From: Bacillus marasmi | GTDB taxonomy: Bacteria; Bacillota; Bacilli; Bacillales; Cytobacillaceae | DNA: 64,000 nt | Reading direction: 5' to 3' | Assembly: GCF_902168435.1 (NCBI RefSeq) | Contig: NZ_LR656174.1 | Span: 62,001-126,000, forward strand | Shown here: positions 13,999-51,581 of the stretch, piece after piece | Layout of the letters: each line of letters opens with the position of its first letter | How positions within the stretch are numbered: position 1 is the first letter of the stretch | The notes under the pieces: model-generated | The model's input: only the letters and a program-made list of their open reading frames with translations | Databases searched by the model: none | What the model was told of the DNA's origin: nothing | Program-made: the position numbers and the translations under genes

Positions 13999-14220
13999 GT
14001 TTTCACTTCCTCATCTTGATTTATTCTAAGTATTATAAATAAATAAAATACATTTGGAAAAAAGGATAAATTTTTATAATTTTAACAAATTTTAAGGTTT
14101 TTTCAACTATTTCGTATTACCTAATTGTTTTGTTTCATTATATATATGAATTACTGTTATTTTGGTTAATTAATATCAATTAATCTTACCTGTGATTTCT
14201 GATCCAAGCGATTCTTTACC

Positions 14221-14265
14221 TAATACAAAAAACCCTTTGGCTTTTACCAAAGGGTTTTTGTATTA
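14221..14265. terminator. Terminator of the large RNA
   Basis: A long inverted repeat with the core CCCTTTGG/CCAAAGGG (14233-14240 with 14247-14254) continues into matching A- and T-rich arms. On the minus strand it is followed by a run of six T. It lies directly after the 3' strand of the closing helix of the RNA described at 14222-15032. Confidence 0.9.
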
Positions 14266-15032
14266 ACATCTTAGGGGACCCAACCATAAACATCAGTGTA
14301 TTCTAATTTAAAAACACTTTAAATGTTTTCTTCGTTATAGAAGAACTTCATTCAATAGAATTACTGATGCGTGTTTGTTCCGATTGAGGAATTCAATGAC
14401 TAGTTTCTTCACACTAGTATTTTGTTCCCGACAAACACTATTTTTTCGATTCATTAATCGAAGACTCGCTTATTCTTCTGCTTTATTTCATTTTAGTACC
14501 GGTTCTTGAATGGTGTAATGATGAAATTAACATTACTAATAATGGTGCTTTAGTAATTTCATTTCTTAGTAGGCAGTTTTTACATCACTTCTGATAAACT
14601 TCTACTCTCTAAATCATTGCCCTAGCTTTTCAACAACTATTCACCGATATCATTGTTGTTTCATTTCTTCATCACACTTTTCTAATCCGTTTCTTACAAA
14701 GAATTTCTTTACACTCTTTGTTTGATGGATTGTTTCAGAAATCGTGTTTCTGGTAGAAAACTTCTATTCTACGTATTTTCTAATTCATAGGTAGAATTTC
14801 TTTTTTCATCCAGTCGATGTTGATAATGAAAATGGTTAGGTTAAAGATTCATTGAATTTCATTTACTTAAGTGAAAAAATGATCTCTGCCACTTTCATTG
14901 ACCACTAAGACTATGGCCTTACTTTGAAACTAGCTATTGATAAGAATAAGTTACTCGTTCACTTTACGGAACGAACACTCAAATGGCTGAGTCTCCTAAG
15001 ATGTTAAGTTGCTTTGTTTCTTTCTATGGTTT
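14222..15032 (-). ncRNA. Large structured noncoding RNA candidate (~810 nt)
   Basis: No coding frame occupies this stretch on either strand. The ends pair: 14263-14275 is a perfect 13-bp inverted complement of 14995-15007, extended to 14279/14991 with one mismatch. Inside are many exact helices: 14291-14297/14363-14369 (extended by 14300-14304/14357-14361), 14371-14378/14431-14438, 14399-14404/14413-14418, 14445-14451/14456-14462, 14532-14539/14550-14557, 14632-14637/14655-14660, 14736-14741/14747-14752, 14753-14758/14767-14772, 14955-14960/14969-14974 and 14977-14981/14988-14992. A sigma-A-like promoter sits just upstream and a strong terminator just downstream on the minus strand. The size and closed-end architecture recall GOLLD, ROOL and OLE RNAs, but I recognise no family signature. 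No associated protein gene is obvious; the neighbours are an HD-domain gene and a 112-residue hypothetical gene. Confidence 0.75.
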
Positions 15033-15038
15033 AAATAT

Positions 15039-15068
15039 ATCATAAATTCTGAACAATGAATCTGCCAA
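15039..15068 (-). promoter_or_regulatory. Promoter of the large RNA
   Basis: On the minus strand TTGGCA (15068-15063) and TATGAT (15044-15039) lie 18 bp apart, each one mismatch from consensus. Predicted transcription start is near 15032, about 25 nt before the closing helix. It lies downstream of the terminator of the preceding gene, so the RNA is an independent unit. Confidence 0.65.
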
Positions 15069-15181
15069 TTGTGACATTTCGTTGAACGTTTCAAACTGTT
15101 TTGAATTTTCTGCAATTTACTAACACCTTCACCTTTATTCTGTTTTTTATATTGTTTAAGGTACCTAATATCCTTATGAAA

Positions 15182-15210
15182 AAAGACATAGGTTTTTATC
15201 CTATGTCTTT
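15182..15210 (-). terminator. Terminator of the 112-residue hypothetical gene
   Basis: A perfect 11-bp stem AAAGACATAGG/CCTATGTCTTT (15182-15192 with 15200-15210) is followed on the minus strand by TTTTTT. It separates the gene at 15222 from the RNA promoter. Confidence 0.9.
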
Positions 15211-15221
15211 AGGTAAACGCT

Positions 15222-15560
15222 TTAATGATTTAGTCCACTAACAACGATTGTAATACTCCAGCATTCCATATTAAGCATGTCATTGAATTTTATCGTTGAT
15301 ACTCTTAATTCGTTGAAATCAGGTGGCATTTTTATACCTTGTTGGATCAGATAATTTAGAAGCTGATTTTGCTGCATTTCTTCTATTCCTAGCGACGGGA
15401 TAAAATAGGTAATGAAGGTATACTCGTCCTCTTTCCATACCTGAGTTATTATCGGTCGTCCATCTTTTAGATATTCTGTATTTTCCATAATGGTGTTGGA
15501 ATTATCAAATTCGTCAGCCTTGTTAAGGATTGGGACCTTGAATTTTAAGCTTCCCTGCAT
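15222..15560 (-). CDS. Hypothetical protein, 112 aa
   Basis: A 112-residue protein that I do not recognise. It begins MQGSLKFKVPILNKADEF and has no signal peptide, membrane segment or metal motif. The sequence alternates short hydrophobic strands with polar turns, so a small alpha/beta fold is plausible. A good ribosome binding site (GGGAGG, 8 nt before ATG) and a dedicated terminator support expression. It is the gene immediately upstream of the large RNA on the same strand, but terminator and promoter keep them separate. Confidence 0.65.
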   Translation of the reverse strand: MQGSLKFKVPILNKADEFDNSNTIMENTEYLKDGRPIITQVWKEDEYTFITYFIPSLGIEEMQQNQLLNYLIQQGIKMPPDFNELRVSTIKFNDMLNMECWSITIVVSGLNH

Positions 15561-51209: not shown

Positions 51210-51440
51210 TTCCGATAACTCCTTATAATGAATCTTTATATTATTCCTAATTTGCCTTCTTCTTAAATTTTTAACCAAATATCATTTTGCTTGATAATAA
51301 AATTGTAAACAAATTACATGAAATAATAAACCTACATTATGAGTTACTTCCTCAAAAATAATTTTGCAGAATATTTTTATAAACTATTTGACTATTACCA
51401 TGTTGTATAGTAAATTTAAAAAAATAAAATAATTTTATTT

Positions 51441-51551
51441 CTTATCAAGAGAGGTTGAGGGTATGGCCCGGTGACACCTCAGCAACCATCAATGTTTTTT
51501 CCATTGATAAGGTGCTAAGTCCAGCAAGTTTTTTAAAACTTGAAAGATAAG
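51441..51551 (+). ncRNA. SAM (S-box) riboswitch
   Basis: The leader opens CTTATCAAGAGAGGTTGAGG and has GGCCCGGTGACACCTCAGCAACC, then AAGGTGCTAAGTCCAGCAAG and closes GAAAGATAAG, which pairs with CTTATC. These are the conserved blocks of the S-box. With the downstream terminator it shuts off the met operon when SAM is plentiful. Confidence 0.97.
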
Positions 51552-51581
51552 AAGATGGCTCATTGACCTTACTACAATCAA

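Follow-up and report, generated by a model that had tools for sequence, protein, structure and literature searches.

A new large structured RNA family of Bacillus marasmi and its relatives with a ResD-type promoter box

To our knowledge, bacterial RNA families of the size considered here number only a handful, and several of them are without a known function or inducing signal. OLE (RF01071) is a large structured noncoding RNA of the Bacillales, several hundred nucleotides long, and the RNA that we describe resembles it in these respects. GOLLD and ROOL resemble it in size, in their elaborate fold and in the pairing of distant segments; their setting is phage or prophage, often near tRNAs. Staphylococcal RNAIII is a large RNA that is governed by a response regulator acting on direct repeats, and it has conserved ends and a variable centre. 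The signals of the response regulator ResD are low oxygen and nitric oxide. RoxS/RsaE (RF01820) is a noncoding RNA with the same type of box in its promoter as the RNA described here, and it is much shorter, with 112 positions in its Rfam model. Durand et al. (2015, PMC4409812) place the ResD site of roxS around -65.

We analyzed a stretch of 64,000 nucleotides from Bacillus marasmi (contig NZ_LR656174.1, positions 62,001 to 126,000), called the window below. Positions 14227-15027 of its minus strand look like an autonomous large noncoding RNA gene, and from the sequence we infer both the transcription of this RNA and its molecular function. The gene and its control elements are as follows.

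14227..15027, minus strand: RNA gene of about 800 nt, delimited by homologues and fold, with its presumed start a few nucleotides past the -10 element and its end at the terminator
14227..14259, minus strand: intrinsic terminator, read from the sequence
15034..15039, minus strand: -10 element TATATT, with TG one base upstream; relatives have TATAAT/TATACT at the aligned place
15070..15086, minus strand: ResD-type activator box, an 11-bp direct repeat TTCAAC-GAAAT-GTCACA, matrix score 20.1 (the window copy is itself a training site)

The first-pass annotation had described a structured stretch without a protein gene, and our results agree. The minus strand of 14222-15032 has a predicted folding energy of -222.7 kcal/mol, where 20 dinucleotide shuffles average -149.7 (sd 4.7), which gives z -15.7, and no ORF of at least 50 aa lies within the same interval. 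The plus strand is also well folded (z -8.4); therefore, the strand was assigned from the -10 element, the box, the terminator and conserved motifs, not from folding. In all 28 members examined, out of the 80 in the family described below, the fold energy surpassed the average of 14 shuffles. This was so even when the closing helix P1 was left out, and the surplus without P1 was weak in some of them (z -1.1 in L058, -1.4 in L063 and -1.7 in L005). The sense strand was lower in energy than the antisense strand in 25 of these 28 members. A coding reading was tried and rejected: the window's copy has no ORF of 50 aa, and the largest cluster of small ORFs (at least 25 aa) yields no coherent protein. 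This cluster comprises 38 of the 80 members, runs antisense, and its inspected examples are an incoherent read of conserved RNA motifs; from five smaller clusters, with 7 to 11 members each, one or two sequences in all were inspected.

None of the 4227 models of Rfam 15, those of GOLLD, ROOL, OLE and raiA included, matched at gathering score in the RNA locus or in 11 member loci; the initial reading had recognised by eye no signature of GOLLD, ROOL or OLE. The RNA family matches none in the Rfam library and is new, and no paper among the open-licence literature matches listed was recognised as describing it. When 14000-15300 was scanned permissively, the best match was PyrR at 32.7 bits (54 needed; E 0.025) over 14223-14348, which runs from the terminator through the P1 3' strand into P3. 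The OLE model gave no match up to E 10 in 14000-15300. A search of 41 relatives with this model found OLE in 12, and two genomes (G018 and G040) carry OLE, with 501 and 517 bits, and the present RNA as separate genes. The missing match to the OLE model and the separate OLE genes in two hosts show that this RNA is not OLE. The RNA differs from GOLLD and ROOL in that neither an Rfam match nor signs of a phage or tRNA setting were found, and the RoxS model does not find it. It shares with RNAIII a response-regulator box with direct repeats, a large size, conserved ends and a variable centre; it differs in matching no Rfam model and in showing no conserved small protein in the largest ORF cluster inspected.

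Two side observations came from the same searches. In the window's family, OLE was found in 1 of 25 genomes and the end blocks of this RNA in 19 of 37, so that the two are nearly complementary in occurrence there. The only Rfam match at threshold in the window is a SAM riboswitch (RF00162) at 51439-51553 on the plus strand, with 100.1 bits.

A DNA search of 61 related genomes produced matches in 28 of them, and 20 contained the conserved end blocks. The matches in the other eight genomes (L020-L023, L025-L028) were single and short or terminator-like, and we took them as chance. A pattern for the 5' end detected 78 loci among 84,980 species genomes, with host labels that were mostly Neobacillus, Mesobacillus, Robertmurraya, Cytobacillus, Pseudoneobacillus, Fervidibacillus and Bacillus sp. 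A slightly wider pattern detected 17 of 397 genomes in a sample of the order, distributed over four families (f1, f5, f20 and f22), where the reversed control pattern matched 1 genome, and 3 of 398 in a sample of the class. These three belong to the window's family, and none of the 360 genomes of other orders in that sample matched; the patterns are strict, and these counts are lower bounds. After removal of duplicates and one artefact (15 duplicate loci and L076b, a reverse-complement echo of L076), 75 complete members and 5 added later gave 80 distinct complete members, the window's included, with a length of 222 to 836 nt from P1 to P1. L014 stands outside the core alignments of 74 and 79 members because its CGGAAC block is changed, and 11 loci that end before the RNA 3' end were used for upstream and flank counts only. 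The large structured RNA class in Bacillaceae that had been proposed from this single copy is thereby borne out by 80 members, mostly in Neobacillus, Mesobacillus, Robertmurraya and Bacillus sp. Judged from these sequences, the family is almost certainly real and noncoding.

Typical copies were also seen under foreign labels, namely Chryseobacterium sp. ISL-80 (L065), Pseudomonas sp. ISL-84 (L099) and Paenibacillus sp. BSR1-1 (L106), the last of which shares the neighbour genes of Neobacillus loci; these three records are probably mislabelled or contaminated assemblies. G040 has two strongly diverged copies (L125 and L126), and both have kept P1 and the direct-repeat box.

The conserved core of the RNA consists of the following elements.

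14983..15007, minus strand: P1, 5' strand, 25 nt, with 96.1% canonical pairs in 79 members
14263..14287, minus strand: P1, 3' strand, 25 nt, on the same basis
14967..14978, minus strand: long-range helix P2, 5' strand GUGUUCGUUCCG, with 11 pairs and one C.A mismatch to 14371-14382
14371..14382, minus strand: long-range helix P2, 3' strand CGGAACAAACAC, on the same basis
14291..14369, minus strand: hairpin P3, CAUCAG...CUGAUG, from consensus folds of three clades

The first reading of the locus had the ends joined by a helix of 13 bp. A closing helix is indeed present, and it is larger: P1 covers 25 positions (15007-14983/14287-14263, G-U allowed), with one A.C mismatch in the window's copy. 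The proportion of canonical pairs fell from 96.1% to 28-50% when the partners were slid by 1 to 3 columns. Homologues with compensatory changes had been set beforehand as the test of the structure, and they were found in P1, where two-sided changes occur at 11 of the 25 pairs in 51 cells, against 4.8 and 6.7 in shuffles, a value reached by 0 of 300 shuffles; the kinship of the sequences makes these shuffle controls lenient. Distant members supply clear replacements in P1, L126 for example. Among the 10153 column pairs of the 74-member alignment, the top score falls in P1 and 8 of the 25 P1 pairs are in the top 1% (hypergeometric p 7e-11, neighbouring pairs not being independent), one of which (28-174) scores partly through non-canonical cells. 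Under our own tree-based covariation nulls, run both weighted by column and unweighted, not one pair fell below an E of 0.05; we suspect that this null is too broad. In a branch-coincidence test the best p, 2.1e-4, belonged to a P1 pair and was not significant after correction for 5886 pairs. An E-INS-i alignment of 56 members had too many gaps in the mid-region for pair statistics.

P1 usually contains a single weak pair, which sits either at 14994/14276 or close by at 14992/14278 (columns 17-185 and 19-183 of the 74-member alignment). Members have either A.C at the first and A-U at the second place, or A-U at the first and G.U at the second. The second-best covariation score joins columns 19 and 185, which do not pair with each other.

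Each of the 11 pairs of P2 is canonical in 71 to 74 of the 74 members, and at least six uninterrupted pairs are possible in 76 of 79 members against 21% of shuffles. Its outermost pair covaries (G-C in 66, A-U in 4 and U-A in 1; rank 3 of 10153). Otherwise P2 is nearly invariant, and covariation says little there. P3 corresponds to a hairpin that had been noticed around 14291-14304/14357-14369 and that is present in the sequence; its 8 pairs all rank below the top 1% of the 10153 column pairs. RNAalifold, applied separately to three clades (15, 5 and 10 sequences), returned P1, P2 and P3 each time. In such a model, the three helices together would form a three-way junction, and the lineage-specific interior would be a structured arm that extends past P2.

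In the window, the RNA lies between a 112-aa gene and an HD-domain gene, and its 3' end is 229 nt before the latter, which is on the same strand. A cis-acting leader or UTR of a neighbouring gene would fit this arrangement, and we regard it as very unlikely, given that the RNA has a box and a -10 element of its own, that a terminator is present in the members printed, and that copies occur at different places within one genome. Within 700 bp, the commonest downstream gene family was present at 25 of 82 loci and the commonest upstream family at 19 of 82, counts for which the flanks were shortened in many loci and 11 loci ended inside the RNA. Since the neighbours vary between lineages, the RNA does not serve as leader to a single operon. 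Two copies occur in some genomes, in one case as a tandem pair (L045), which would suit a mobile repeat. We found no pattern match in viral contigs, no blastn match for the window's copy in plasmid and phage records, and no tRNA in the 64-kb window. The decayed coding gene that the initial reading had named as a possible outcome was not found either: the largest cluster of small ORFs is incoherent, and P1 shows compensatory changes. A decayed gene or mobile repeat is the most improbable of the explanations that we weighed.

The elements at both ends of the gene were compared with those of the relatives. The promoter that had originally been assigned, TTGGCA-N18-TATGAT, could not be upheld; it is one of 11 promoter-like matches, for which shuffles give 10.9, and by eye its -35 element is absent from the matching place in relatives. 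No conserved -35 element was seen in the upstream regions of members. The terminator fared better: the hairpin 14259-14227 is present in the sequence, and by eye a hairpin and a T-run follow P1 in the 20 members printed. A simple terminator scanner missed this hairpin, we guess because its T-run is drawn into the stem. The claim of the first-pass annotation that the RNA has its own promoter and terminator is borne out at the level of sequence, by a different -10 element that aligns among relatives and by the terminator of the members printed.

Upstream of the -10 element, 84 of 88 regions contain the 11-bp direct repeat TTCACA-N5-GTCACA in at least 9 of 12 positions, a threshold passed by about 2% of shuffled regions. 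The distance from the start of the repeat to the -10 element is 47 bp in 69 of these 84 regions and 47 to 49 bp in 83. We built a matrix from 72 sites upstream of this RNA, with no other input, and applied it to promoters of known regulation. It was scanned on 15 of 18 roxS, 13 of 16 ctaA and 15 of 16 resA loci, and its cut of 12 was picked post hoc, once the scores were known. A score of at least 12 was reached in 12 of the 15 roxS upstream regions, and these matches sit at about the position (around -65) that Durand et al. give for the ResD site. Rex would be another candidate regulator; its site in roxS lies downstream of the promoter according to a second report (PMC5419742), away from the matrix matches, and the boxes are direct repeats. 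The orientation of the box is opposite between the RNA described here and roxS. The three roxS regions below 12 include that of the window's own genome, which scores 7.2 at the place of the ResD site.

We take resA and ctaA to be ResD targets as well. Within 520 bp upstream, the matrix reached 12 in 9 of 13 ctaA and 9 of 15 resA regions (together 18 of 28, which leaves 10 without a site at this cut), against 1 of 56 control windows taken from these loci (Fisher p 2e-10). The nine resA sites are uniform, all on the sense strand and eight of them about 125 to 150 nt before the match, and the ctaA sites vary in place and strand, with four of the nine, from the window's genus, sharing one near-identical site. 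A ResD-type site at a near-fixed distance from the -10 element is found before the RNA, and among the known targets scanned some have a weak site or none. The matrix matches at roxS, resA and ctaA suggest that the RNA probably belongs to the ResD regulon of low oxygen and nitric oxide, and from these sites we hold it very probable that the RNA gene is under ResD control.

In the window's genome, a box also precedes a gene that is below the cut-off for the ResA model (L207), and a weaker multiple repeat precedes a gene read as cytochrome c oxidase subunit II (L209). Further boxes in this genome gave 46 pattern matches, against 23 for the reversed pattern, which means that about half of them are noise. 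High scores were seen at L208 (17.2), before a membrane-transporter-like gene, at L212 (24.2), before a short gene pair, and at L150 (24.2), before a 322-aa gene. L212 has no clear -10 element at 47 bp, and the boxes of these three loci may be chance.

The interior of the RNA contains elements that compete with P2 or that differ between lineages.

14955..14974, minus strand: local hairpin UCGUUC/GAACGA, exclusive with P2
14431..14438, minus strand: P4, alternative partner GUGUUUGU for the P2 3' strand, lineage-dependent
14462..14469, minus strand: middle motif GCGAGUCU, GAGTY in relatives
14439..14954, minus strand: lineage-specific structured interior, from an alignment of five same-genus members

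Past the P2 5' strand, 76 of 80 members have GAACG within 40 nt, where shuffles predict 2.05, and a local-hairpin helix of at least 7 bp is possible in 72 of 80 members, against 25% of shuffles. A limit of at least 5 bp, reached by 80 of 80 members, was uninformative, as 95% of shuffles pass it. The predicted energies of the local hairpin and of P2, compared with no random control, differ by no more than 3 kcal/mol in 49 of 79 members and by no more than 5 in 69; P2 has the lower energy in 57, the local hairpin in the other 22, among them the window's copy, by 1.1 kcal/mol. At the level of sequence, these data support two pairings of the P2 5' strand that are both conserved and exclude each other. 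A strand bound to two partners would be hard to change, which would explain the near-invariance of P2.

The 3' strand of P2 also has a second possible partner. The internal helix 14371-14378/14431-14438 (ACAAACAC/GTGTTTGT), listed in the first reading, is present in the sequence, and 56 of 79 members can form this P4 pairing with at least 7 bp (the mean is 7.2, and 5.3 in shuffles). The middle motif GAGTY was seen in 72 of 79 members, where shuffles predict 37.5, and the longer A[AT]GAGTY in 57 of 79 against 11.2; the shorter form is that of the window's copy. Between clades the middle varies, and the ends are conserved. Among the 162 predicted pairs in the interior of the five same-genus members, 28 showed two-sided changes. 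Beyond the first-pass annotation, the present analysis contributes the P1/P2/P3 core with its alternative pairings, the ResD-type box, the range of species and the co-occurrence with OLE in two genomes.

Our overall reading, which we consider likely, is that of a new autonomous large-RNA family of one bacillar order, probably activated by ResD, whose core would refold and may serve as a platform in trans. ResD would activate the RNA gene at limiting oxygen or nitric oxide. In the nascent transcript, the local hairpin UCGUUC/GAACGA would form first; once the 3' end emerges, CGGAACAAACAC would displace this hairpin, and P2 and then P1 would close. The finished clamp would protect both ends and mark the molecule as complete. 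The closed core would then act as a trans platform in the respiration shift, most likely with a protein or another copy of the RNA as its binding partner. The ordered refolding from the local hairpin to P2 and P1, drawn from two conserved pairings, is plausible, with our doubts slightly outweighing our confidence, and a platform rather than a base-pairing role is a tentative preference in which we have less confidence still. For the role of the closed core we rank the platform before a base-pairing regulator and the latter before an oligomer. The most specific form of this proposal, an RNA machine dedicated to oxygen limitation that ResD makes when respiration fails, that refolds, joins its core to itself or to a protein and carries lineage-specific arms on a three-way junction, is speculative and on balance doubtful.

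In a base-pairing regulator like RNAIII, loops would pair with mRNAs, the ends would be a stabilising clamp and the variable arm would hold lineage-specific target sites. The response-regulator type of box at near-fixed spacing and the conserved ends around a variable middle, as in the layout of RNAIII, speak for such a role. The most conserved sequences are in helices, not loops, and RoxS, the sole partner tried, pairs with this RNA no better than with shuffled RNA; we regard a base-pairing regulator as possible, on balance unlikely. The trial with RoxS followed the sponge RosA (PMC8216469). In each of 9 genomes, with one copy each, at least 3 of 12 shuffles equalled or exceeded the pairing of the RNA, and a RoxS sponge was therefore rejected.

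A homo-oligomeric particle of RNA only or of RNA and protein, like GOLLD, ROOL and OLE, appears somewhat less likely still. The size, the strong fold and the closed ends would agree with it, and the GAACGA that is freed by P2 is complementary to the UCGUUC of another copy, which would make domain-swapped dimers possible. Size alone is no proof, for the raiA motif RNA is reported as a monomer (PMC12286853). Nor does this RNA show the setting of GOLLD and ROOL, since there is no tRNA in the window, no match in viral contigs and no phage or plasmid match with the window's copy. The family offers a testable signal, namely ResD at low oxygen or nitric oxide, and a defined core; natural variants of 222 to 836 nt hint at which parts are dispensable, and several hosts are named cultured species.

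Two further observations concern the regulation of the RNA and the occurrence of RoxS. With the consensus that we assume for cre, a CcpA-type site was found in 11 of 84 members against 0.36 expected. In seven loci from several families (L012, L014, L018, L045, L074, L109 and L111), a cre-like site lies within the transcribed region, about 70 to 89 nt downstream of the P1 start. RoxS was found in 15 of 21 relatives searched, and G010 has four RoxS-like loci (contigs 89, 147 and 78), two of which are close together on one contig and three of which are below the family cut-off.
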